This document shows positions 6,828-19,800 of a stretch of 64,000 nucleotides of DNA, piece after piece. Source of the stretch: Nitrosotalea devaniterrae (GTDB taxonomy: Archaea; Thermoproteota; Nitrososphaeria; Nitrososphaerales; Nitrosopumilaceae); NCBI GenBank assembly GCA_900065925.1, contig LN890280.1, positions 62,001-126,000 on the forward strand, written 5' to 3'. A program made the translations under genes and the position numbers. Each line of letters begins with the position of its first letter. The first letter of the stretch is position 1. The notes beneath the pieces were generated by a model. It made no database searches, was not told the origin of the DNA, and was given only the letters and a program-made list of their open reading frames with translations.

Positions 6828-7469
6828 ATGACCGGCTTCGATAAGACCTGGACTCGACCTGAGTCTGTTGGTATATCAGAAAAATTACGTGAAACTGTAA
6901 AGCCACAAGGCGCTCTAAAACCTAGGATTGAGCAAGCTGTGAACAAATTACAGGGTCAAATATCGAAGATGGATTCTATGTTGGGCAAGCTGAGAGAAAG
7001 AGATGCTCAGTTGTTCAAGAGAATCGTAGCCGCAATGCAACATCACGATGCAGCAACAAGTAGAGTTCTGTCAAACGAACTAGCTGAGATTAGAAAGGTG
7101 TCAAAGATGTTAGGAAATGCTAGAATGGCATTAGAGCAAGTACAATTGCGTCTAACCACAATACATGACCTCGGTGATGCAATGGTAGCAATCGCCCCTG
7201 CAATGTCCACAATGAAGGGACTAAAATCATCACTTGGAAGGTTCATGCCAGAAGCAGATTCTGAACTCAATGCAATGACACAGACACTCAATGGTTTGAT
7301 GATGGACTCGCTAGCAGGTGGAGACTTTAACGTTGATACCGATGCATCAAACGAAGAGACAGAAAGGATTTTGCAAGAAGCATCTGCAGTTGCAGAACAG
7401 CAGATTGGCGACAGATTCCCATCAGTTCCATCACCCTCCGGCGTATCGTCACAATCAACATACGAGTAG
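6828..7469 (+). CDS. cdvB: CdvB-family ESCRT-III-like cell division protein
   Basis: 213 residues, predicted almost wholly helical over 30-170 with the heptad-like Snf7 core (IEQAVNKLQGQISKMDSM, LRERDAQLFKRIVAAMQHHD), then an acidic disordered tail ending QSTYE. CdvB proteins polymerise on membranes and constrict the division neck together with the ATPase CdvC and, where present, CdvA. Thaumarchaeota commonly carry several CdvB paralogues. This one lacks an obvious winged-helix C-terminal extension, and no strong MIM motif is visible in its tail. No cdvA or cdvC is adjacent in the window. The gene is free-standing, between the racemase-like gene and a secreted protein. Family call firm; which paralogue it is remains open. 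Confidence 0.85.
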   Translation: MTGFDKTWTRPESVGISEKLRETVKPQGALKPRIEQAVNKLQGQISKMDSMLGKLRERDAQLFKRIVAAMQHHDAATSRVLSNELAEIRKVSKMLGNARMALEQVQLRLTTIHDLGDAMVAIAPAMSTMKGLKSSLGRFMPEADSELNAMTQTLNGLMMDSLAGGDFNVDTDASNEETERILQEASAVAEQQIGDRFPSVPSPSGVSSQSTYE

Positions 7470-7611: not shown

Positions 7612-9234
7612 GTGAGATCAAAGAATCTGGTATTATTTACGATATCCCTCATAGTATTAACTAGTGTAGTGGTGTATTCTGCAGATGCTGCGGGAATTCC
7701 AAAAAAGGCAATATCTACAGTAGCTAGATTTTTGGAAAGTGATCTTCCTACAACAACTGTATTTACTGATCAGGCAAGTACATACACTGCAGGAAAACAA
7801 ACCTTTCTAGCTTCATCTAGCAGCAGTGCGGGAGTAAACATACCGACAGGAAGTGATCCTACAACTCCAGCGCAAGGAGACATTTGGTTAAACAGTGACA
7901 CACTCAAGTATCGTGGTACGTCTACCCATTCCCTCATAACAAGTGCAATCACATCCATTAACTCAGATGCTAATGCTGCTCAAATAATCCAGGGAGTGTC
8001 TGGCAACACTACTACTTCTACTTCTGCAGGTACTACGACCATCAACACTGGTAGTAACGTTGTAGTGACAGGAGGTTCTGCACAGACAATCTCAAAACAG
8101 TTGACAATTAATAGTGGTGTACTGGGCGGAAACCTCAATGTTGGCTCTAATGCACTAACCGACTCTGGTCATTTGATCACACTCCCGACCAATACTGGAA
8201 CTGTATTACTTACTAATGGATCAGGCAGCTCATTGACTAACATAGTAACATCAATCACTGGCACTGCAAACAATCTCACCTCTTCCGCATCAACGGGTGC
8301 GGTTACACTAAACCTAGGTTCTAACGTGGTGACAACAGGCGGCTCTGCACAGACAATTTCAAAAGCAATAAAAATTACTGGATTGTCAACAGCAGAAACA
8401 GGAAATAAGACCGCTGCTTATGCAGTAACATCAAGCGATGATGTTGTATATGTAGATGACACTGCTGGATCTGTAACAATTACCTTGCCCACTGCAGTAG
8501 GATTGGATGGGAAAATATTTACAATAAAAAAAGTTTCTAACTCTCTTAATATTGTAACAATATCTACAACAGGAGGTCAAACCATAGATGGAGCAACAAG
8601 CACCACACTTAACAGCGCTCAAGAAAAAGTCATTGTCCAGAGTAATAATCATAATTGGTTTACACTCTCAAACAAAGGTGATGATATAGATTCATACAGA
8701 ATACGGGGAAGTAGGTACTTCTCTAGTGGGATTGATCAGTATACTGATGTAATAGGTGGAACACCAACAGCTACAACATTAAACGCATATCCGCTTATTG
8801 TTTCAAAGACAATCAAAATAGATCAGATTGGGTTATCTGTATCCACACTTGCTGGTGGTTCAAGTTGTCATGCTGGAATATACACAGACACTGGAAACAC
8901 AGCTCCAAGTACATTGGTGACTGGTTCAGATGTTACACTTACAACAACTGCAGCTGGATTAAAAACTGGTACGGTTTCAGTAATTCTTCAGGGCAATAAC
9001 CTGTACTGGCTTGCTTATGAGTGTAGTACAGCTGCGACATTAAAGATCATGACCATGCCAGTGACTGCTGTTCCAAATGTGTTGGGAATTGTACCAACAG
9101 GAGCTGCAGTATCAGTGGGTACTGGATATTCTGCAACTAATACATTTGGTGCATTACCTTCAACATATCCTTCAGCAGGCTTGACAGTATTGACTACAGC
9201 GCCTGTGGAAATAGTTGTAAGAATAGCATCATAG
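7612..9234 (+). CDS. Secreted protein with phage-tail-fibre-like modules
   Basis: 540 residues starting at GTG, with a signal peptide (RSKNLVLFTISLIVLTSVVVYS, cleavage likely after ADA at about 27). After it come modules reminiscent of phage tail proteins: a PTTPAQGDIWLN segment (about 83-94), two copies of a GGSAQTISK block (about 155-163 and 246-254), then a VYVDDTAGSVTITLP block followed by QTIDGA and an NHNWFTLS end (about 275-355). The C-terminal 170 residues look like a beta-rich domain with one Cys pair. Low complexity, rich in Thr, Ser, Gly and Asn. No transmembrane anchor. Probably an extracellular adhesin or appendage component; the relation to virion proteins is by pattern only. 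It precedes a run of other surface genes. Confidence 0.75.
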   Translation: MRSKNLVLFTISLIVLTSVVVYSADAAGIPKKAISTVARFLESDLPTTTVFTDQASTYTAGKQTFLASSSSSAGVNIPTGSDPTTPAQGDIWLNSDTLKYRGTSTHSLITSAITSINSDANAAQIIQGVSGNTTTSTSAGTTTINTGSNVVVTGGSAQTISKQLTINSGVLGGNLNVGSNALTDSGHLITLPTNTGTVLLTNGSGSSLTNIVTSITGTANNLTSSASTGAVTLNLGSNVVTTGGSAQTISKAIKITGLSTAETGNKTAAYAVTSSDDVVYVDDTAGSVTITLPTAVGLDGKIFTIKKVSNSLNIVTISTTGGQTIDGATSTTLNSAQEKVIVQSNNHNWFTLSNKGDDIDSYRIRGSRYFSSGIDQYTDVIGGTPTATTLNAYPLIVSKTIKIDQIGLSVSTLAGGSSCHAGIYTDTGNTAPSTLVTGSDVTLTTTAAGLKTGTVSVILQGNNLYWLAYECSTAATLKIMTMPVTAVPNVLGIVPTGAAVSVGTGYSATNTFGALPSTYPSAGLTVLTTAPVEIVVRIAS

Positions 9235-9815: not shown

Positions 9816-10089
9816 TGAAATAAATTTAACACTGATAGATTAATGTGTCTAAATTTTCTATTAGACAATTCAAATCAAATGATTTTTTACATTAATTGAG
9901 AATTAGAATTTGTTTATTCCATATGCAATAAAATTAGTAAAACTGTTTGATCTACAAATATGTCTTATTTCTTAGGTTTTTTAGGTATTCCAAATTGGCA
10001 CGGTTTTTAGAACATTTTTCCAATATGTTCCATTTAATTTGTTAGTCTATTCCGGCCCGCTTAATGCTTGACAAGATCTAAATTAATTA

Positions 10090-13000
10090 TTGAACATATT
10101 GAACAAGGAAATTAGGATTCTTGCTATTTCTGTAGTATTATTACTAAATATTTCACTTGTGGGAGTTGTAGCTGCAGAAAAGAATGAACTAGGTGTTGAT
10201 ACGACAGAATACAAAATTTCCAACAAACAACATGAAAATATTGTAATCCAAGAAAATCATGCATCAAAAAAAATCCAGCTTAGTCTTTCAGAAAATGTCG
10301 GTATTAGTTCCAATAATGATCCTACCAGTAGATCAACAACACAAAGTAATGATCAAAATTCTATTGATAGTTCATATCCATTATACACTGAAGTTAATTT
10401 GTTTGATACAATTACAATTTCTGACAATCCGAAAGGACAAAATGTGTTATTGGTAATTTCAAATCTGAATCCGCAGACAGCACTTAACAAAATCTCAAAT
10501 ACGGAAAGGATCAGATTCCATGGAAAGACTATAACAATTACAAATGAAAACTTAGATCAACTAATCAACATTCAACATATTCTAAAAAATACAAAACAGT
10601 TTATTTCACAAATGGATTATTCAATAATACAGATAATTGGAAAATCAAATACCAAAACATTTGATCAAATTAATTCCAATCTACAACTAACTGCAACAGG
10701 ATTCTACACCATAACAAGCGACATTGCAAAAGATGTCGGTGGCATATCGCATGATCTATCAAAATCAACTCCAGTCATCCTAGTACTGATGGTGCCCCTT
10801 TCGGGCTATATTCTTCTACGATCAGAAGAAGAGAAAATAAAACCAAACAAAAATCAAATTTTTTCATTTTGTTTCATTTTGATTTTGGTGTCATCATCTG
10901 CAGTCACCCCGTTTGCAATAAGCCAAAACTATTGGGGAATGGCATTTGCAGAACCGCAAAACCAGACCTCTGGTGTGAATGGTACAGTTCAAAACAATAC
11001 TGTCTCAAATGGTACGGTTGCAAATACAACAACTGCCACTGTATCATCCAATGAAGCAAATTCCGCTGTATTGTCTAACAGTACAAATTATAATCTGACA
11101 GTTCCTGTTTCCAATTTCACTGTATCAAACCAGACTGGTTCAATTATACTTGCAAACCAGACAAACTCTACTGTATCTACAAACCAAACCATATCAAATC
11201 AGACCGAATTGATACCCAACTACCTCTCATTTGGTCTATCAACTGGCGTATCAATAACTGATGAAATTACAATACTGCGAAACGGCACCACTCCTCCAGT
11301 GCAGGCAAATACAGACCTCTCAACTGGCGTATCAATAACTGATGAAATTACAATACTGCGAAACGGCATAGTTCCACCGACAAATGCTACATCCGGTCTC
11401 TCAACCAACCTATCCATCCTGGACTCAATCAATGTCACAAAATCAGGAATCACGATACCACAGGCAGACAAATCATGGAACTTTACTACAACCAATGATA
11501 CCATAGGGAAGGCAAGAGTGGAGAACAATACACTGGACCTCAAAGGAAACGGCTACCTGCAGGAAAAGGTCAACTCTACCAACATACTAGACAACTTTAC
11601 CGTATCTGCATGGGTCAAGCCTGACTACTCACAAGGATCACCTGTATTTTCAGTAATCACAAAATCAGGCCTGTTTGCACTTGATGTCAACAACAACATC
11701 ACTCCATCCAAGGCTGCAACATTTTCAATATACGACGGTATACACTGGAGCACCATAAACTCCACCATATCCATCCCTGAGAACAGCTGGACATACCTTG
11801 CAGGCACATACAACGGCACATACATCACAATCTACGTCAACGGCACACTCCAGTCCTCATACAAACTGCAGGGAGTACTCTCAATATCTGACGATGGGCA
11901 CCTGGTTCCAGTGGATTCGGACCAGATATCGTCAAACTCTGACGTAGTAATTGGTGCGTCTGTAAATACTGTCCACTCTGCAATCACTGACAAGTTCTCA
12001 GGTGGCATCCAGAAGGTGAACCTGTACAAAGTAATGCTTACTCCAGAGCAGGTGTCATTGGCATACCAGCAGGATGTGGCTGGATTTAACCCAGGCAGGA
12101 ATGTATCTACAAATCTAGTCGATATTGTTGAAATGTCAGATCTGATAGCATTGAAAGTAAATGCAACCATGTCACAAACTACTAACTCTTCTGTTACGGT
12201 AAATGATCTCTCGCTAAGCCATGATTCCATCATAATAAACAAACCAGTAACTTGGATGCAAAATGTTACACTCTCAAATAAAACTGACAGCCTTGCACTA
12301 GAAATGCCTGCAGATGCAAAAATTCTCTCCATAAATGCTTCAAATGGAAATAATATTACAAAAATATTTGAAACTCGATATAATTCTCATACATCTCACA
12401 CTATACCATATGTAGGAAGCAGCGGCATCACTACGAGCAAGGATATCGATAAGAACATGACAACAAGATTGGCTGTGCTTGACAATTCCGTAGGACAAAT
12501 TCCAATGATCGGCAATAACAATACGATATTTGATAACAAAACCATTCCACTAGCATCACTGGATATTGTATCTCACATGGTAGAAAATAACAAACCAACA
12601 AAGGTTCTTGTTATAAATAATACTGCTGACCAGTACAATGTTAAATTTGAAACACCTCCTCCATTTACGCAAGAAGTAAACCAGTCTACACCAGATTTGT
12701 ATAGAAAGAGTGTTACAGTTGAAAATAATTCTACATTACATTATACTGAAGTAAAATCATTTACTAACATTCCAGAGAGTCTTGTTGCCAAGGGAATACA
12801 CTTTAAACTATACTGGATGATAAATGGCTCTAAAGTAGATGTCACAAGCAATCCAAGTTTCCAGGTTCAATTTGTAGATACTAACAGTAATGGTATCCAT
12901 GATCAGATGCAATGGACTGTACCACATTTATCGGATCAGCAATTTGTCGTAGAAGCACAATTGACAGTGATAAACGTACAATCTTATCCGGTTGTTGGAG

Positions 13001-16000
13001 GAAACTGGACTGTATACTTTAACACCACTGGAACTGCGGATCTCAACATCACTGCAATTAATGGAACATTGTTTGGTAATTCACAACCAGCTGATCTGCA
13101 TTTTCTTGAACTAAATAATGGTACTACAAACTTGACACCTACAATCCAAGGTAACTCAATAATCTATCATAACTATTCTAGCACAAAGGTGGGATTTGAA
13201 ATCTCACATGTCATGACATCTGGAAAACACCATCTAATGTTTCAATTCGGTAATTCTACTGCATTTGCAAACAATAATGCATTTTTGAGCCAGATTTCTG
13301 TCAATACTCCGCTTTCAGTGGTAATTGACAACAGTGGCAACTTTATCTATGGTGCAGCAACTGATAAAGTGGCAAAAACAAGCCCATCTCCTTCATTACT
13401 CTTCAATAGCAGTTCTACTGCATCATTTGGTGTAGCTGTAAACAGTACGGGATATGTCTTTGTTGCAGACGCACAAGATGACAAGATTAACATTTTTGAT
13501 TCCAATGGAAACTCAGCTGGTTCATTTGGAAGTACTGGTAGTGGTACCACACAATTTTCCAACCCTACTGGGGTTGCAGTAGATTCTTCTGGAAATATCT
13601 ATGTTGCAGACACTGGAAATGATCGAGTCCAGAAATTTGATGCACACAGGAACTATCTTACAACATTTGGAAGCAGCGGCAGCGGCAGCGGCCAATTCCT
13701 AGGGCCAATGGGTATTGCGATAAACAGCACTGGTTATGTGTACATTACAGATACCGGAAATGATAGGGTGGAAATATTTGCTCCTAGCACCAGCTTTGTA
13801 AACTCATTTGGTGCAACTGGTTCAGGAAATGGGAAATTCAATAGCCCTATTGGAATAGCAGTTGATGGGCTCAACAATGTCTATGTGGCAGATATTCAAA
13901 ATGACAGAATCGAGAAATTCAGTCCTTCTGGATCATACATGTCCGCGTTTGGTTCAACTGGATCTGGCAACAGTAACTTTGATGGCCCGATAGGCGTTGC
14001 AATAGATAGTTCTAATTCAATTTATGTTGCAGATGCTAATAATAATAAAATCAAGAAATTCTATCCTGACGATCTAGGACCAACTGATACACAATCCATC
14101 AGTGAATCAATCACAAAATCAATCACAAAACATCTCTCAGATAACATATCCATTACAGATTCAGTATCCACTTCTGGTAACAAGATCAAATCTGTCTCTG
14201 ACTCTGTATCCATTACAGATTCAGTATCCACTTCTGGTAACAAGATCAAATCTGTCTCTGACTCTGTATCCATTACAGATTCAGTATCCACTTCTGGTAA
14301 CAAGATCAAATCTCTCTCCGATTCAGTCTCCATCACTGATACTACCTCCACCGCAACTTCTCAACACAAGTCTCTCTCCGACTCTATCTCCATCACTGAT
14401 ACTACCTCCACCGCAACTTCTCAACACAAGTCTCTCTCCGACTCTGTATCAATAACTGACTCGACAGCTACTTCAGCTAACAAATCTCGATCTCTCTCCG
14501 ACTCTGTATCCATCACTGATTCACTCACTACCTCTGCAACCAAGACTCGATCTCTCTCCGATTCAGTCTCCATCACTGATACTACCTCCACCGCAACTTC
14601 TCAACACAAGTCTCTCTCCGACTCTGTATCCATCACTGATACTACCTCCACCGCAACTTCGCAACACAAGTCTCTCTCCGACTCTGTATCCATCACTGAT
14701 ACTACCTCCACCGCAACTTCGCAACACAAGTCTCTCTCCGACTCTGTATCAATAACTGACTCGACAGCTACTTCAGCTAACAAATCTCAATCTCTCTCCG
14801 ACTCGGTATCAATTTCAGACTCACTTACAACCTCAAGATTTAAGCTTCAATCACTATCAGATTCAGTCTCCATCACTGATACTACCTCCACCGCAACTTC
14901 TCAACACAAGTCTCTCTCAGATTCTGTATCGCTTGCTGATGACTTGACTACACATGCTACTCATAGCTTTACTCAATCTCTTACAGATTCAGTTATGATC
15001 ACAACCAGTACAGCAAACAACATTTCACAAGTTCTTTCAGACAATGTGATACTATCTGCTTCCTCTACACCATTTGCAAATCTTGCTAGTAATCAACAAG
15101 TAGTTGAGAATGCTACCACTCAGATTACTGTTAATTCATCTACTCCACAACTTGTAGTAGTAAACAACAATATCTCTTTAGCAAATGTTAATGTGCCATC
15201 TACCGTTACTAGTCCAACCATAAACTATTCAGCCATAAAACAAACAAGTGGTAGTGTAATATCTGTCCCAATCATAACTTCACTTACTATAACTAAAGAC
15301 ACAACTGGTAACACACAACCTGATATCAAACTTACAATTCCATCCGACACAACAATTTCAGGAACATCTTGGAATGCAGTTCTAACACTGCCTACTGTAC
15401 AAAGTTCCTCTTCTGTATCTCTGCCTACTACCTCAGGGGAAGTGAATACTCCTAAAACCGTAATCACGATAGGTTCTACCACATCATTGTCATTTGACAA
15501 ACCGGTCAGGCTTTTGTTTGTTGGACAATCTGGTCTACGTACAGGCTTCTTCCATTCTACTTCTGTAACTGAAATCACATCCGTTTGTACTTCTGATAGT
15601 GTATCGGGAGTTCCCGCTGGTTCTAATGAATGCAAGATAAACGTGGGCGCTGATCTGGTTGTATGGACAAAACACTTTACTGGATTTGCTACATGGAGTT
15701 CAAGCTCATCTAGCACGCCAGGATCATCTGGTACTGGGACAAGTCAAGGAGGCGGAAGTGGTACAGGAGTTGGCGCAGCAACGGGGGTAGGTGCAGCTAC
15801 AAGCAATGGTGGAGGAGCAGGACCATATCTTAAGATCCAAAAGGTATCTTATGATACATGTGACAAACAAATTGTAAGAATCCAAATAGCAACGGACAAA
15901 GAGGTAGACCCAATGGTAATTGTTCGAACTTCTATTACTGGAGTGGTAGATGCAAAACTTGTAGCCGATCAGCCATACGCACAAGAAAATATCAATGCCA

Positions 16001-17292
16001 CGATAAAAACACTAGTCTATGAAGCTTCCATAAATCCAAAAGAAACATCATTTGAAGTTTTAGCACTTGGGGCGGTTGGACACAATGTCTTCTCCGTAGG
16101 AAAAACAATCACAGTATCTAGCTGTAGCGAGACAATCTCATTTGAAAATCTAGTAGTGCAAGCACAAGTAGATGTACAGGCTCCTCAAATATTTGATGTA
16201 AAATACAAGATTGAAAACCAGACAGCAATATCTGCTGATACCAATGGCTTTGTAGATTCAAAGCCTGTTACCATAAGTGCTATAATAAGCAGTAACTCTA
16301 CACTAGATCAGGCAGATCTGAGATTTTCTACTTTGAATGCCAACACTACTTTAGATGTAAACTCTATGACATATGATGTAGCTAGCATGCAAGTAACACA
16401 TCTGCCAATTTCTGGCAATTTCTATATGGTTACTACCACTATTTCTCCAGCACAACTACAATCTCCAGCCTTGGTATATTGGATACACGTGAAAAATAGT
16501 GGACAAAAGACAAGTGACTCTCAGCAATACATTCTAGGAATCAAGCCAACATATGCAGTAAATGACGATCTTGACATGGATATACAAACAAACAGGGCAG
16601 AAGGCACAACCGCAACTCCAACAGCTTATGTAACAAACAATGCACAGGGTCCACTCTTTGGAACTGTATCTTTGATGGTTAATGGAAAATCTGTCTATAC
16701 ATCTGTACCACAAATATTTGAAACAGGTCAGACTGCAGTAAGACTAGAGTGGCACACACCTGTATCACATCAGGTAGTATCATACCAAGTAACTGCAAGT
16801 GCAGAAATTTATGGTAAATCAATCAAAACCAATGTGCACACAGTGAATACATTCCCACCAACCAAGACAATTGCAATATCAAATAATGACTCCATTGGTA
16901 TCATCACAAGTGGAAATACCACGATAGCATATCCATCTGTATTGTATTCATCTTTCACAAATGATCATACTATGAGATACAAAGTTACTTCTCCAGACGG
17001 AACCTGTGTAATTGGAATGGATGATAATTGCATGATACATGATTCCACATTGCAATCACCAGGAGGTTTACAGTCTGTAACATTAGGAAGTCAAGTATAT
17101 AGAATCAGATATTCTGGACCTGACAGTGAACTTGAGAGATTCTCTATTACTTCAGTTGATCCAATAACTGGAAACTGGAAGGTAGAGATTGTTTCTCAAC
17201 ATGGAATGGTGCCTGTGATGGATGCAGAGTCTGGTACATTCTTGAAGATACAATACAGACCAATAACAAATCAATTCATCACAGAAAAATAA
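10090..17292 (+). CDS. Giant modular surface protein (LamG-like, NHL repeats, SD-rich tandem repeats)
   Basis: 2400 residues. TTG start at 10090 (another TTG at 10099). Order: signal peptide 1-30; a 200-residue domain; hydrophobic segments near 228-242 and 258-278, the latter followed by an AFA-like cleavage site; an Asn/Thr-rich stretch full of N-x-T/S sequons (290-385); two near-identical STGVSITDEITILRNG repeats; a LamG/concanavalin-like domain (about 460-663; NFTVSAWVKPDYS, NSWTYLAGTYNGT); Ig-like regions; five NHL repeats (about 1073-1327) of the GSGNGKFNSPIGIAVD and NVYVAD type; fourteen 20-residue S-D-S-V-S-I-T-D repeats (1348-1627); a beta domain; a Gly-rich linker (about 1870-1912); and a C-terminal Ig-like region. 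Likely a glycosylated cell-surface adhesin or S-layer-associated protein. No C-terminal anchor or sorting motif is seen. Confidence 0.85.
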   Translation: MNILNKEIRILAISVVLLLNISLVGVVAAEKNELGVDTTEYKISNKQHENIVIQENHASKKIQLSLSENVGISSNNDPTSRSTTQSNDQNSIDSSYPLYTEVNLFDTITISDNPKGQNVLLVISNLNPQTALNKISNTERIRFHGKTITITNENLDQLINIQHILKNTKQFISQMDYSIIQIIGKSNTKTFDQINSNLQLTATGFYTITSDIAKDVGGISHDLSKSTPVILVLMVPLSGYILLRSEEEKIKPNKNQIFSFCFILILVSSSAVTPFAISQNYWGMAFAEPQNQTSGVNGTVQNNTVSNGTVANTTTATVSSNEANSAVLSNSTNYNLTVPVSNFTVSNQTGSIILANQTNSTVSTNQTISNQTELIPNYLSFGLSTGVSITDEITILRNGTTPPVQANTDLSTGVSITDEITILRNGIVPPTNATSGLSTNLSILDSINVTKSGITIPQADKSWNFTTTNDTIGKARVENNTLDLKGNGYLQEKVNSTNILDNFTVSAWVKPDYSQGSPVFSVITKSGLFALDVNNNITPSKAATFSIYDGIHWSTINSTISIPENSWTYLAGTYNGTYITIYVNGTLQSSYKLQGVLSISDDGHLVPVDSDQISSNSDVVIGASVNTVHSAITDKFSGGIQKVNLYKVMLTPEQVSLAYQQDVAGFNPGRNVSTNLVDIVEMSDLIALKVNATMSQTTNSSVTVNDLSLSHDSIIINKPVTWMQNVTLSNKTDSLALEMPADAKILSINASNGNNITKIFETRYNSHTSHTIPYVGSSGITTSKDIDKNMTTRLAVLDNSVGQIPMIGNNNTIFDNKTIPLASLDIVSHMVENNKPTKVLVINNTADQYNVKFETPPPFTQEVNQSTPDLYRKSVTVENNSTLHYTEVKSFTNIPESLVAKGIHFKLYWMINGSKVDVTSNPSFQVQFVDTNSNGIHDQMQWTVPHLSDQQFVVEAQLTVINVQSYPVVGGNWTVYFNTTGTADLNITAINGTLFGNSQPADLHFLELNNGTTNLTPTIQGNSIIYHNYSSTKVGFEISHVMTSGKHHLMFQFGNSTAFANNNAFLSQISVNTPLSVVIDNSGNFIYGAATDKVAKTSPSPSLLFNSSSTASFGVAVNSTGYVFVADAQDDKINIFDSNGNSAGSFGSTGSGTTQFSNPTGVAVDSSGNIYVADTGNDRVQKFDAHRNYLTTFGSSGSGSGQFLGPMGIAINSTGYVYITDTGNDRVEIFAPSTSFVNSFGATGSGNGKFNSPIGIAVDGLNNVYVADIQNDRIEKFSPSGSYMSAFGSTGSGNSNFDGPIGVAIDSSNSIYVADANNNKIKKFYPDDLGPTDTQSISESITKSITKHLSDNISITDSVSTSGNKIKSVSDSVSITDSVSTSGNKIKSVSDSVSITDSVSTSGNKIKSLSDSVSITDTTSTATSQHKSLSDSISITDTTSTATSQHKSLSDSVSITDSTATSANKSRSLSDSVSITDSLTTSATKTRSLSDSVSITDTTSTATSQHKSLSDSVSITDTTSTATSQHKSLSDSVSITDTTSTATSQHKSLSDSVSITDSTATSANKSQSLSDSVSISDSLTTSRFKLQSLSDSVSITDTTSTATSQHKSLSDSVSLADDLTTHATHSFTQSLTDSVMITTSTANNISQVLSDNVILSASSTPFANLASNQQVVENATTQITVNSSTPQLVVVNNNISLANVNVPSTVTSPTINYSAIKQTSGSVISVPIITSLTITKDTTGNTQPDIKLTIPSDTTISGTSWNAVLTLPTVQSSSSVSLPTTSGEVNTPKTVITIGSTTSLSFDKPVRLLFVGQSGLRTGFFHSTSVTEITSVCTSDSVSGVPAGSNECKINVGADLVVWTKHFTGFATWSSSSSSTPGSSGTGTSQGGGSGTGVGAATGVGAATSNGGGAGPYLKIQKVSYDTCDKQIVRIQIATDKEVDPMVIVRTSITGVVDAKLVADQPYAQENINATIKTLVYEASINPKETSFEVLALGAVGHNVFSVGKTITVSSCSETISFENLVVQAQVDVQAPQIFDVKYKIENQTAISADTNGFVDSKPVTISAIISSNSTLDQADLRFSTLNANTTLDVNSMTYDVASMQVTHLPISGNFYMVTTTISPAQLQSPALVYWIHVKNSGQKTSDSQQYILGIKPTYAVNDDLDMDIQTNRAEGTTATPTAYVTNNAQGPLFGTVSLMVNGKSVYTSVPQIFETGQTAVRLEWHTPVSHQVVSYQVTASAEIYGKSIKTNVHTVNTFPPTKTIAISNNDSIGIITSGNTTIAYPSVLYSSFTNDHTMRYKVTSPDGTCVIGMDDNCMIHDSTLQSPGGLQSVTLGSQVYRIRYSGPDSELERFSITSVDPITGNWKVEIVSQHGMVPVMDAESGTFLKIQYRPITNQFITEK
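11239..11368 (+). repeat. Two 49-bp direct repeats, 81-bp spacing, inside the giant surface gene
   Basis: The stretch from 11239 to 11287 recurs at 11320-11368 without visible difference. It encodes STGVSITDEITILRNG twice. The VSITD core is the same as that of the later 60-bp repeats, so this is probably an older or shorter expansion of the same peptide module. The repeat distance is a multiple of three, so gain or loss of a copy would keep the frame. Confidence 0.85.
14131..14970 (+). repeat. Tandem array of fourteen 60-bp units within the surface protein gene
   Basis: The DNA shows an exact 60-bp period. Each unit encodes 20 residues of the form (S)(L/V)SDSVSITD followed by a variable ten-residue half: SVSTSGNKIK in the first three units, TTSTATSQHK in six units, and STATSANKS or SLTTSATKT types in others. 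Several units are nearly identical in DNA (for example 14551-14730), which suggests recent duplication or gene conversion. Degenerate units flank the array on the 3' side (SLTDSVMIT, VLSDNVILS). Period and frame mean copy-number change would lengthen or shorten a serine/aspartate-rich stalk without frameshift. Open frames on the opposite strand here are artefacts of the periodicity. Confidence 0.95.
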
Positions 17293-17297
17293 ACTCA

Positions 17298-17963
17298 TCA
17301 GGTTTTACCATCTAAAATATTGCGTGCAGTCTGAAATATTTTATTCCAGTCTTTCCATTTGAGCCTGCCAGTTTGAGTATTTTGTTTGCTTGGGTGATAT
17401 GAGCATAAGACAATATACCTTTTGTGATGGATTATCTTACCATGTGCAAATTCTCTGTCGTCTATATTCAAAAGCTTGCGACATGTATCGAATGCTATAC
17501 GTCCAAGGCAAACTATGATACTGACATGTTTCAATATTTCCAATTCATTTTCAATATATGAAAAGCAATTGTCAAACTCTTCTTTTGTAGGTTTATTTTC
17601 TGGAGGGGCACATCTTACTGATGCTGTGACATAAGCATCAATCAATTGGTATCCGTCATTTCTATGTGTACTTTGTGGTTTGCTTGCAAAACCATTTTCA
17701 AAAAGAGATCTTGCTAACCAGTCCCCAGAACTGTCTCCTGTAAACATCCTTCCGGTCCTGTTACCTCCATGAGCTGCAGGTGCAAGGCCAACAAGTAAAA
17801 GCCTTGCATGGATGTCGCCAAATCCAGTTAGAGGTTTCCCCCAGTATTTTTCATTTTGAAATCGTTTTACTTTTTTCTTTGTAACTGTTCGTATGTATGA
17901 TGACAATCTCTTACATTTTTTACATCGTGTAATACGATTGTTGAGGATCTCAAACTCATTCAT
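17298..17963 (-). CDS. udgB: Family 5 uracil-DNA glycosylase (UdgB type)
   Basis: The frame extends further upstream, but ATG at 17963 is preferred: it gives a normal N-terminus (MNEFEILNNRITRCKKC) and an ATGA overlap with the preceding gene's stop. The protein then has 221 residues. N-terminal CKKC supplies two Fe-S ligands. Motif A is GLAPAAHGGNRTGRMFTGD, which in family 5 lacks the catalytic Asp/Asn of other UDGs. SVRCAPPENKPTKEE and the SYHPSKQNTQTG motif with its active-site His complete the signature. UdgB enzymes remove uracil and some damaged bases from DNA in archaea and actinobacteria. It is translationally coupled to a secreted protein of unknown function, an odd partnership. Confidence 0.92.
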   Translation of the reverse strand: MNEFEILNNRITRCKKCKRLSSYIRTVTKKKVKRFQNEKYWGKPLTGFGDIHARLLLVGLAPAAHGGNRTGRMFTGDSSGDWLARSLFENGFASKPQSTHRNDGYQLIDAYVTASVRCAPPENKPTKEEFDNCFSYIENELEILKHVSIIVCLGRIAFDTCRKLLNIDDREFAHGKIIHHKRYIVLCSYHPSKQNTQTGRLKWKDWNKIFQTARNILDGKT

Positions 17964-18718
17964 CTGATATGTTTTTTCCAATTTATAATCAATATTGGGA
18001 TAAATGAGATAATCAAAGAAAGCATGGGCCATGGAAATTCAGGTATTGACTTGTCCGGTGATATCAAGTCACTCCATTTTGATGGTGATGGAATGTTTGG
18101 AAATTTCATTGTGTCAATGTTTACAGGCCAAGAAGATATGTGATGACTTACTGTATCATATGTTGCTGCGTACAAGTGATACTTGTCTGATCTTCCAACC
18201 AAATCAATTGGTATTCTAAATTCATATGATGGATGTGGATCATTTGTATATCTGTCATTATTATCTGATATATTTGAAATTGCAATAAATCTTGGGTCAT
18301 TGTCTATTCGTGTATAGTGATCTGTTGCGGATAGATCAGAACCTCCCTGCAACGTAATTGCATTATTAGTACCTAGTGAAACTAGAAAACAATAATCATC
18401 ATTTTGTGATGTATTTTCAGTAGATGTATTTGATGTAATGCAAACTATGCCGTAATCACTATTCTTCATAAATTTTTCTTGTCCAATTGCATCCAAAAAA
18501 ACATACAAGTACTTGTAATCATGTCCTATTCGTAATGCAGTTCCTCCAGCATCTGTATAACTAGTTCTCTTCCACTCTTGGATAAACGACCACTTGCCGT
18601 CCCATATTGTAGCATTACCATCATCTCTGTAGGTTGTCTCAGTTTCAACTGCATACACATGACTTGTACCAATGAATATTACTGCAAAAAAAATCAAACC
18701 AAAAAATAGAAACTTCAT
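17960..18718 (-). CDS. Secreted membrane-anchored protein with PEF-type C-terminal anchor
   Basis: 252 residues from ATG 18718 (a TTG four codons upstream is also in frame). A signal peptide spans 1-24 (KFLFFGLIFFAVIFIGTSHVYA). The ectodomain begins TTYRDDGNATIWDGKWSFIQEW and contains YLYVFLDAIGQEKF and YEFRIPIDLVG, a pattern resembling DOMON/CBM9-like beta-sandwich domains of surface proteins. The C-terminus has SIPEFPWPMLSL, a hydrophobic helix, and the basic end NWKKHIR: a PEF motif + helix + positive tail as in archaeal C-terminal sorting or anchoring signals. It is followed by udgB with a 4-nt overlap. Probably displayed on the outer face of the membrane; ligand unknown. Confidence 0.7.
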   Translation of the reverse strand: MKFLFFGLIFFAVIFIGTSHVYAVETETTYRDDGNATIWDGKWSFIQEWKRTSYTDAGGTALRIGHDYKYLYVFLDAIGQEKFMKNSDYGIVCITSNTSTENTSQNDDYCFLVSLGTNNAITLQGGSDLSATDHYTRIDNDPRFIAISNISDNNDRYTNDPHPSYEFRIPIDLVGRSDKYHLYAATYDTVSHHISSWPVNIDTMKFPNIPSPSKWSDLISPDKSIPEFPWPMLSLIISFIPILIINWKKHIR

Positions 18719-18780
18719 GTGACAGTTCAATTACACTTAGAAAATTATTGCTTTTATACTTGTACGGATCAAAAATATTA

Positions 18781-18987
18781 TTGAAAAAAAACATATCCAT
18801 TGGAATAGGAATTGGGATAGCTATCATTGTCATTTTAGGTCTGTCATGGGTGATTGGTAATAATGTTGAAAAAACACCTCCATCTGGCATCTATAATGCC
18901 AGTCAGATTGCTTCTTCTACACCACCTGTTGGAAAAACTTACCATCTGAATTTTTCAGAGTCTGTTGGCATCAAGGCTCAACCTTAA
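18781..18987 (+). CDS. Small single-pass membrane protein
   Basis: The likely start is TTG at 18781, giving 68 residues: a short basic N-terminus (KKN), one hydrophobic helix (ISIGIGIGIAIIVILGLSWVIG), then a 40-residue exterior tail ending FSESVGIKAQP. A longer frame beginning at 18748 would add a hydrophobic stretch without a plausible leader, so I reject it. No known family. The tail motif (L-x-F-S-E-S-V-G-I) resembles SLSENVGIS near the start of the mature 2400-residue surface protein in this window. It is divergent from the PEF-anchored gene and precedes the next secreted protein by 157 bases. Confidence 0.6.
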   Translation: MKKNISIGIGIGIAIIVILGLSWVIGNNVEKTPPSGIYNASQIASSTPPVGKTYHLNFSESVGIKAQP

Positions 18988-19112
18988 CTCTATTAGCTTA
19001 ATGTGCTTCCAAAATGGTAATTTTATAGATTTTTCATTTCCATTTTGGTATTTTTGTGATTTTTTGATATAATGTACCAATTTATTCTAGATTTTACAAC
19101 TATGTCACAAAG

Positions 19113-19122
19113 GTTTATTAAC
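19113..19122 (+). promoter_or_regulatory. Putative TATA box for the secreted protein at 19145
   Basis: The motif GTTTATTAAC lies 23-32 bases before the ATG at 19145, the position expected for an archaeal TATA element driving a near-leaderless transcript. No other gene would use it in this orientation. Assignment by pattern and distance only. Confidence 0.5.
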
Positions 19123-19144: not shown

Positions 19145-19765
19145 ATGACAACAAAGTTCATAGCTTTGACAATTGCTTTAGCAGCAATCGTCACAGTAGG
19201 TGGAGCTTTTGCTTTGACACAGACTGGAAGAACTACCGGACTACAGACTGATGACATGAAAACCTTAGGTCACATAGCACTTGTAGTTTATGGTCCAGAT
19301 GGAAATATCAAAGCATACAGACAGACCGATAACCAGGTTACAACAACTGGTGATAACGCAACTGTAAACAAGTTGTTTGGTGTAGCAAGAACTACCAACA
19401 CTGGTGGTTCATCAAGTGGTACATTTACTGCAGTAGCAGTAGGAACAGGCGGTAATGCAGCCTTGGCAACAGACACTGCTCTTCAAACCCAAGTAGGCCA
19501 CAAAGTAATTGCAACTACAAGTATCTCTACCGCAACACATGGTAACGTTGTGCTAACTGCTAACTTTGCAGCAGGAAGAATAACAAATTCATCCACGCAA
19601 ACTATCACAGAAGCAGGAATATTTGACAATACTAGTGGAGGCGGCTTGTCGTTGAATGGAACAGGTGCATCTGGTGCTAACATGTTTGCTAGACAACAAT
19701 TTACTGGTATAGGCATCGGACCTTCTGATACGCTCCAAATCACTTGGACCGTAAACATAACTTAG
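19145..19765 (+). CDS. Secreted protein with a virion-structural-like domain
   Basis: 206 residues, ATG start, signal peptide about 1-24 (KFIALTIALAAIVTVGGAFA). The mature part reads like a domain often seen in tailed-phage structural genes: FTAVAVGTGG, then DTALQTQV, VVLTANFAAG, TQTITEAGIFD, NMFARQQFTGIGIGPSDTLQITWTV. In phages this pattern (a VGTG start, EAG(I/L)F, FAR-x-x-F, DTL-x-(I/V)TW end) marks a short beta-rich structural protein; here it has acquired an export signal. No transmembrane anchor other than the signal. A hairpin and T-rich stretch follow the stop. Probably an abundant extracellular protein of unknown role; the virion link is by pattern and needs structural confirmation. 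Confidence 0.72.
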   Translation: MTTKFIALTIALAAIVTVGGAFALTQTGRTTGLQTDDMKTLGHIALVVYGPDGNIKAYRQTDNQVTTTGDNATVNKLFGVARTTNTGGSSSGTFTAVAVGTGGNAALATDTALQTQVGHKVIATTSISTATHGNVVLTANFAAGRITNSSTQTITEAGIFDNTSGGGLSLNGTGASGANMFARQQFTGIGIGPSDTLQITWTVNIT

Positions 19766-19778
19766 GTCTACAATTAAT

Positions 19779-19800
19779 GGTCTGGGGAGACCTTCCTTTA
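19779..19800 (+). terminator. Hairpin with T-rich tail after the secreted protein gene
   Basis: GGTCT-GGGG-AGACC forms a five-pair stem with a four-base loop at 19779-19792, 14 bases after the stop, followed by TTCCTTTATTTTAATTT. Archaeal termination mainly needs the T-rich stretch, so the hairpin may be incidental or protect the mRNA 3' end. Confidence 0.5.

Follow-up and report, generated by a model that had tools for sequence, protein, structure and literature searches.

The archaeon Nitrosotalea devaniterrae encodes a small protein, here called FIB, in which a fibre-type domain of tailed viruses stands behind an export-type N-terminal segment. Probably the cell has put a virus part to use on its own surface, since FIB carries a predicted export signal, is encoded by an ordinary chromosomal gene and adjoins a predicted sugar-binding surface protein. 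The observations behind this reading are homology, a predicted fold, the N-terminal segment, a cellular locus, pairing and co-occurrence with a partner gene, and an upstream palindrome. The gene lies in a stretch of 64,000 nucleotides of contig LN890280.1 (positions 62,001 to 126,000), which we refer to as the window. The ORF was confirmed, with an ATG start, a length of 206 aa and exact ends, and a search of the single-contig genome (1,805,304 bases) with FIB gave a single match. Hydrophobic residues 1-23 are followed by a short linker and by the domain, which begins at about residue 40:

19145..19765, plus strand: FIB, fibre-domain protein with an export-type N-terminus, 206 aa (ORF and translation)
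19145..19213, plus strand: predicted export signal, FIB residues 1-23, with possible cleavage between AFA and LTQ, or N-terminal anchor (by eye)
19262..19762, plus strand: virion fibre/baseplate-type beta domain, FIB residues 40-206 (profile and fold)

The five motifs from which the preliminary description had argued for a phage structural domain (AVGTGG, DTALQTQV, TITEAGIFD, MFARQQF and DTLQITWTV) are all present in FIB in the order claimed. The same order recurs in tailed-virus proteins of about 150 aa, which are collinear over the domain and whose profile similarity is above chance. FIB matches phrog_5417 (E = 3.8e-13) and phrog_4176, "tail fiber protein" (2.9e-4). Among 28 archaeal homologues, 26 match phrog_5417 at E <= 1 (best 2.5e-31), while phrog_4176 and Pfam PF23140 (Gp80) are each matched by eight at the same threshold (best 1.3e-13 and 8.9e-8, respectively). 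Searches of other kinds returned little. No Pfam match, Gp80 included, was obtained with FIB as a single sequence, and its sequence search of the PDB did not rise above chance level, one of the rows being a phage tail tip fibre (7z4b, E 1.3). The PDB searched with a profile of the family-wide alignment (A1) gave no match, tblastn against phages gave one weak record (E 0.3), and IMG/VR searched with the single FIB protein gave none. Matches to a dephospho-CoA kinase and a superoxide dismutase were dismissed as chance.

Relatives in viruses were found by a profile search of IMG/VR that used A2, a subset of the divergent alignment A1, as did the locus searches of genome contigs. The search identified 63 loci with relatives, mostly of about 150 aa, aligning to archaeal residues 40-206. 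In all three contigs inspected (L094, L069 and L108) the viral homologue lies downstream of portal-type and major head genes, and in L094 and L069 a terminase lies upstream of it. One viral member scores above the PF12571 (Phage_tail_fib) cut-off and three others match Gp80 below its cut-off. A near-identical viral domain was not found by phage tblastn or by the single-protein and profile searches of IMG/VR.

The predicted fold points in the same direction. An AlphaFold model of FIB, built from 58 sequences, has a mean pLDDT of 76.6, with the first 24 residues below 50 and values of at least 85 in 11 of the 17 ten-residue blocks from residue 41 on; it is all-beta save for one helix. In a Foldseek comparison with the PDB, the tail of the archaeal virus HFTV1 was the sole match below 0.001, and fibre I of phage GP4 came second (E 0.28). 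By VIA-align the best solved match was again the HFTV1 tail (Z 11.3, 131 residues, 2.0 A; 9h4p chain BD, residues 376-508, a tail chain not assigned to fibre or hub), followed by A511 gp105 and the phi812 arm (both Z 9.3), GP4 fibre I (8jou; Z 7.9 over 117 residues) and phiKZ gp139 (Z 7.0); non-viral rows reached Z 4.8 at most. The tail fibres of HFTV1 are described as trimeric, and so is its baseplate hub (PMC12494034). Among predicted viral proteins there were 45 matches at E <= 0.001, with a best TM of 0.92 by target length, and they include proteins of haloarchaeal tailed viruses and of lipothrixviruses. The preliminary description had staked its claim on structural similarity to virion proteins, and the comparison, run on the predicted model, did not refute it. 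Profile, fold and phylogeny support the central idea of that description, namely that an export-type segment precedes a virion-structural domain.

The N-terminus of FIB, MTTKFIALTIALAAIVTVGGAFA followed by LTQ, resembles a Sec signal as judged by eye. We compared it with homologues in an alignment (A4) of 57 out of 77 dereplicated homologues plus the window protein, comprising 30 archaeal and 28 viral or bacterial-contig rows. All 30 archaeal rows have a strongly hydrophobic N-terminal 15-mer, as against none of the 28 others. Near the chosen start the 15-residue hydrophobicity is at least 1.92 in archaea and at most 1.23 in the viral and bacterial-contig rows; start codons of homologues were chosen by hand, to suit the profile. 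A4 leaves aside near copies, some divergent archaeal rows (for example L055, L058, L064 and the second L052 copy) and the IMG/VR group with a hydrophobic N-terminus. That group makes up 10 of the 63 IMG/VR loci, the segment being absent in the other 53. The archaeal form of FIB appears to be an export-type protein by design, with either a cleaved signal or an uncleaved anchor. A class III signal, the basic residue plus G or A that precedes the hydrophobic stretch of type IV pilins and archaellins, was not seen by eye in FIB. The "clear export signal" of the preliminary description stands as a hydrophobic N-terminus in 30 of 30 archaeal rows, its likeness to Sec being a judgement by eye.

The ten IMG/VR contigs in which the domain stands behind a hydrophobic N-terminus are L100 (7605-8312), L071-L074, L079, L080, L089, L103 and L115. 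In L100, terminase, portal, major head and major tail genes lie close to this version. Judging by these sequences, some tailed phages may export a fibre protein.

Two further properties were compared across A4. The cysteine count is even in all 30 archaeal rows (none in 3, two in 25 and four in 2) and odd in 11 of the 28 viral and bacterial-contig rows, a pattern that speaks for a place outside the cell for the archaeal form. N-glycosylation sequons occur at the level set by composition (90 vs 95.5 expected) and thus give no sign of glycosylation.

Upstream of FIB lie a divergent partner gene and a small ORF:

17960..18730, minus strand: partner, with signal-type N-terminus, CBM9 fold and C-terminal IPEF..hydrophobic tail (alignment and model)
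18748..18987, plus strand: small ORF of 79 aa with a hydrophobic segment, ending in GKTYHLNFSESVGIKAQP, between the CBM9-fold gene and FIB (pattern)

Alignment of 23 partner orthologues showed invariant cysteines and a C-terminal PEF..hydrophobic tail, whose match to PEFG-CTERM is weak (E 0.024, below cut-off). By its model (pLDDT 79.1) the partner has a CBM9 fold: the three CBM9 modules matched span Z 17.4-16.5, led by 1i82 (Z 17.4, 165 residues, 2.4 A) and 7nwn (Z 17.2). They are followed by a putative carbohydrate-binding protein (15.6), enzyme subunits (13.9 and 12.8) and CBM74 (9.6); carbohydrate-module and enzyme-subunit rows together run from Z 15.6 to 9.5, and antibody-type rows begin at 7.8. 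Pfam CBM9_1 is matched by only 2 of the 23 partners (best E 0.01). The partner is predicted to be a membrane-anchored, sugar-binding surface protein. Since subunits of redox enzymes share a similar fold (2ivf, Z 13.9; 7b04, Z 12.8), subunits which we take to have a haem role, glycan binding stays a candidate role.

ORFs similar to the small one occur directly upstream in 16 of 33 FIB upstream regions, by a pattern that was set post hoc on sequences already seen. In their products, of roughly 60-105 aa, a linker joins a hydrophobic segment to a strand-like end such as KSYTVELNESVGI. A search for a tether-like motif common to surface proteins of the window gave 2 matches in 52 ORFs vs 0.75 expected, and we do not claim one.

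These small proteins invite a reading in which FIB is a secreted filament or matrix protein whose subunits polymerise once exported, for instance through donor-strand exchange involving the strand-like end of the small membrane protein. TasA and the archaeal bundling pili are filaments of the donor-strand type. The all-beta model, the strand-like end of the upstream protein and the even cysteine counts of the archaeal rows would suit such a protein, but the viral relatives of FIB are parts of fibres and baseplates rather than filament subunits, and we regard this reading as unlikely. Pilus-type and TasA-like folds are absent among the fold matches listed, which excludes neither and is no evidence against them.

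Candidate regulatory elements near FIB and before a giant gene of the window, together with that gene, are as follows:

19007..19019, no strand: palindrome TTCCAAAATGGTA, candidate operator (pattern search)
19038..19050, no strand: second palindrome, TTCCATTTTGGTA, also a candidate operator; the two are 31 bp apart (pattern search)
19068..19073, plus strand: TATA-like element TATAAT, possible promoter (sequence)
19114..19121, plus strand: alternative TATA-like element TTTATTAA, near the homologue-conserved position of about -28 (comparison)
19779..19792, plus strand: weak hairpin 3' of FIB, not significant (folding and pattern scan)
9988..10000, no strand: palindrome TTCCAAATTGGCA, 102 bp before the start listed for a giant gene (pattern search)
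10090..17292, plus strand: giant protein of 2400 aa with Laminin_G_3 and NHL repeats, candidate co-regulated gene (family matches)

Of 33 regions, 25 contain the palindrome CCANNNTGG in the 200 bp that precede FIB, as against 0.73 expected from shuffles and 103 of 1892 random 200-bp windows (5.4%). Its position is conserved, with a start 69-70 bp before the FIB start codon in 21 of the 33 regions and 71 bp before it in one. A TTCCA half-site follows 31 bp past the palindrome and a TATA-like element lies at about -28. In the window and in L059 there are paired palindromes, 31 bp apart, at -136 and -105. The "strong own promoter" of the preliminary description is accordingly a conserved promoter region of its own, with palindrome, half-site and TATA-like element, and its strength is unproven. 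The sigma-70-type match at 19045-19073 does not belong to an archaeal promoter class. The terminator hairpin at 19779-19792 also fell away: it has 5 pairs and folds no better than shuffles (z = 0.73), and the pattern scan gave 2 sites vs 0.6 expected, both of them this one hairpin on its two strands.

Palindromes of a longer pattern number 16 in the genome vs 7 for the control, about a twofold excess. Fifteen of the 16 could be placed, 11 inside ORFs and 4 in intergenic regions; FIB accounts for two of the latter, and the other two stand at the giant LamG/NHL gene and at the gene of a winged-helix protein. In other loci carrying a giant-gene label, 3 of 19 (L041, L043 and L053) have the palindrome 101 bp upstream, the label being a BLAST assignment at E <= 1e-4 that repeats can inflate. 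Of 29 places with the winged-helix gene, 12 (L167-L178) share at least 48% identity in alignments covering most of the protein, and 6 of these full-length copies, our own included, have the palindrome upstream; none of the 17 distant or partial copies does. The winged-helix protein (L164:668-1381; G000:C1:1164997-1165707) has an HTH_24 domain and two hydrophobic segments and is a candidate one-component regulator of the palindrome. A strict form of the palindrome occurs 30 times in 31 related genomes, our own included, vs 5 for the control. Thirteen of the 28 strict-form loci inspected have the site inside an ORF, and several other sites precede genes with signal-peptide-like starts, as judged by eye. 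In L200, L206 and L220 the palindrome lies between divergent genes with such starts, encoding proteins of 174 aa and about 450-490 aa, and these gene pairs are possibly further members of the regulon.

The surroundings of FIB are those of a cellular gene. Of 34 loci taken from named genomes, 27 have FIB and the partner as divergent neighbours, with at most a small ORF between. Among the 34 loci, a UDG-type gene lies near FIB in 17, a CdvB-like gene in 18 and a cobalamin-type gene in 17. The UDG gene passes the cut-off of its Pfam family; against NCBIfam CdvB1/B2 the CdvB-like gene reaches 160.6 bits, below the cut-off of 350. This ESCRT-III-type gene of the conserved locus is found at 6828-7469 of the window. 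Other neighbours we take, from their sequences, to be GlyS, MurI, cobalamin (Cbi/Cob), RQC, NMD, endonuclease IV, primase and UPF0182 genes. The archaeal FIB genes thus lie outside virion structural modules, in a conserved cellular locus, which argues that FIB is a homologue of the viral domain and not a virion gene.

FIB and its partner are also inherited together. In a set of 200 family genomes, FIB is matched in 85 and the partner in 80 at E <= 0.001: 73 contain both, 12 FIB alone, 7 the partner alone and 108 neither (Fisher 3.5e-33), or 72, 6, 5 and 117 on a stricter reading. FIB lies divergently within 2 kb at 68 of 73 partner places compared, a comparison that omits partner-only genomes and some second or fragment copies. 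Of 119 high-quality genomes of the family, 57 have a FIB match and about half have none, and some copies of FIB contain stop codons. FIB is therefore dispensable.

FIB is less conserved than any of the eight syntenic neighbours with pairs to compare (stop-to-stop ORFs, pairs with 80 or fewer aligned residues skipped). Its mean identity is 33.8 vs 43.4 for the CBM9-fold partner (FIB lower in 368 of 378 pairs), 36.4 vs 64.4 for UDG (151 of 153) and 35.1 vs 87.0 for the CdvB-like gene (171 of 171). Fast divergence, patchy presence and stop-bearing copies of a domain of the attachment-apparatus kind would fit an antiviral decoy, an exported attachment-type domain that occupies or masks the glycans or S-layer sites bound by tailed viruses. 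The stable co-inheritance with the CBM9-fold partner and the conserved promoter element nevertheless suit a surface module better, and the phage tblastn and IMG/VR searches yielded no near-identical viral domain, so that we hold a decoy to be quite improbable.

In a sample of 400 genomes of the class, 108 had matches to the FIB profile, 107 of them in the order Nitrososphaerales, although some weak matches may be to other families. In the family genomes, weak profile matches also led to a second protein of about 290-310 aa in the same genus (G006:C1:1763205, G003:C55:1099, G027:C40:3406 and G032:C13:18914), possibly another fibre-domain family. Two divergent FIB genes per genome were observed in L058, a Nitrososphaeraceae MAG, and in the group f8 genomes G278, G283, G284, G286 and G342, where the gap between the paired genes is about 0.7-1.35 kb. 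A scan of genome contigs, other classes included, with a pattern derived from archaeal sequences gave 38 loci, 35 of them archaeal. A tree of 58 rows, made by a quick method without bootstrap and unrooted, gathers 29 of the 30 archaeal rows into a single group (SH-aLRT 93, which does not decide the matter) and puts one Nitrososphaera row among the viral rows. The single archaeal group is compatible with one old recruitment.

The tree, being unrooted, also accommodates the opposite course, in which the cellular form is older and archaeal surface proteins were the source from which tailed viruses acquired the domain, or in which both go back to a common older fold. We give this little probability: the fold occurs in viruses of bacteria, in viruses of haloarchaea and in lipothrixviruses, but in cells it turned up almost solely in one archaeal order (107 of the 108 genomes matched in the class sample). 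The direction from virus to cell is inferred from this breadth of occurrence, not from a rooted tree.

The preliminary description had further suggested repeated recruitment of viral parts, on the strength of a second protein encoded at 7612. This is weakly supported, since the FIB tree fits one recruitment and the only match of the second protein is to phrog_25864, a family that carries no assigned function. That protein (7612-9231, 540 aa, with a hydrophobic N-terminus) matches phrog_25864 over its C-terminal residues 368-521 (E 5.7e-6), and has no Pfam match at E <= 0.1. A search of 60 further genomes gave matches to it in 7, each belonging to the same genus.

Very improbable, finally, is that an integrated virus left FIB behind as a remnant or carries it as cargo, with expression confined to the virus cycle: its nearest outside relatives found are viral homologues, and the IMG/VR loci include those with a hydrophobic N-terminus, L100 among virion genes, but synteny with housekeeping-type genes is kept over many species, nearly all archaeal rows group apart in the tree, and no virion gene was recognised among the ORFs between positions 300 and 27418 (seven scanned against family libraries, the rest by eye), so that synteny and phylogeny disfavour a simple prophage.

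Several known systems resemble FIB in part. The tailed-virus proteins of PHROG 5417 (without assigned function) and PHROG 4176 (tail fibre) share its collinear domain and motif order; unlike FIB, they mostly lack a hydrophobic N-terminus and, in the contigs inspected, lie in virion gene modules. Fibre I gp80 of podophage GP4 (PF23140, 8jou) is similar in fold and in the Gp80 profile matches of archaeal homologues. The N-terminal domain of phage tail-collar fibres (PF12571) is matched by a viral relative, whereas FIB itself has no Pfam match. The HFTV1 tail chain, Listeria phage A511 gp105 and the phi812 arm are alike in fold but belong to larger tail or baseplate assemblies. For the partner, CBM9 modules (1i82, 7nwn) offer a similar fold, to which the partner adds a C-terminal hydrophobic anchor while barely matching Pfam CBM9_1. 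As virus tail parts kept by cells, type VI secretion and extracellular contractile injection systems (PMC8987985) and tailocins (PMC10598620) are comparable, as far as the available parts of these papers go. Such domesticated tails are multi-part machines, however, whereas FIB is one fibre domain with its own export-type segment. The available part of a review of recruited mobile-element genes (PMC8987985) covers tail machines and capsid-derived shells and contains no exported single fibre domain. The word "fiber" is absent from the available part of a Nitrosopumilus proteomics paper (PMC6593220). Our search of the open-access literature, with subscription papers and supplementary files outside its scope, returned no paper on exported fibre-domain proteins in Nitrososphaerales. 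FIB would be a further case of a known process, the domestication of a virus structural part.

On balance we lean towards the explanation that FIB is a viral fibre domain joined to an export-type segment and now serving as a cellular surface protein, and we infer an old recruitment into a co-regulated, probably glycan-related surface module. An export-type segment and short linker would have been fused to a tailed-virus fibre or baseplate domain to give FIB in ammonia-oxidising archaea and their relatives (order Nitrososphaerales). The protein would be exported by Sec and would form a small fibre-like beta structure, possibly a trimer, on the outer side of the membrane. Anchored neighbours, the CBM9-fold protein and perhaps the small membrane protein with the strand-like end, would tether it. 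The module may mediate attachment to glycans of the cell's own S-layer, of other cells or of particles, through the partner or through FIB itself. A regulator acting on the palindrome would switch the module along with further surface genes, and the winged-helix protein with its membrane segments is the candidate for this role.

More tentatively, and more probably wrong than right, these proteins might represent a new class of archaeal surface fibre: a tailed-virus domain captured early in Nitrososphaerales, provided with an export signal and retained as a fast-evolving outer part, together with a CBM9-fold anchor and a small membrane protein that may hold FIB by its C-terminal strand. A membrane-bound regulator would then control FIB through a palindrome common to giant surface proteins, and FIB may serve in attachment and may also compete with viruses for binding sites.

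Ammonia-oxidising archaea are abundant in soil and sea, and to our knowledge their attachment to surfaces and their encounters with viruses are poorly known. The locus offers a compact list for this subject: FIB, the CBM9-fold protein, the small membrane protein, the giant LamG/NHL protein, the winged-helix candidate and the DNA element. Phage tails are known to be retained entire by cells, which use them as weapons or for secretion; one exported fibre domain would be a different and simpler takeover. If our reading is true, a virus fibre domain leaves these cells by the normal export route and has long been retained in a conserved locus.
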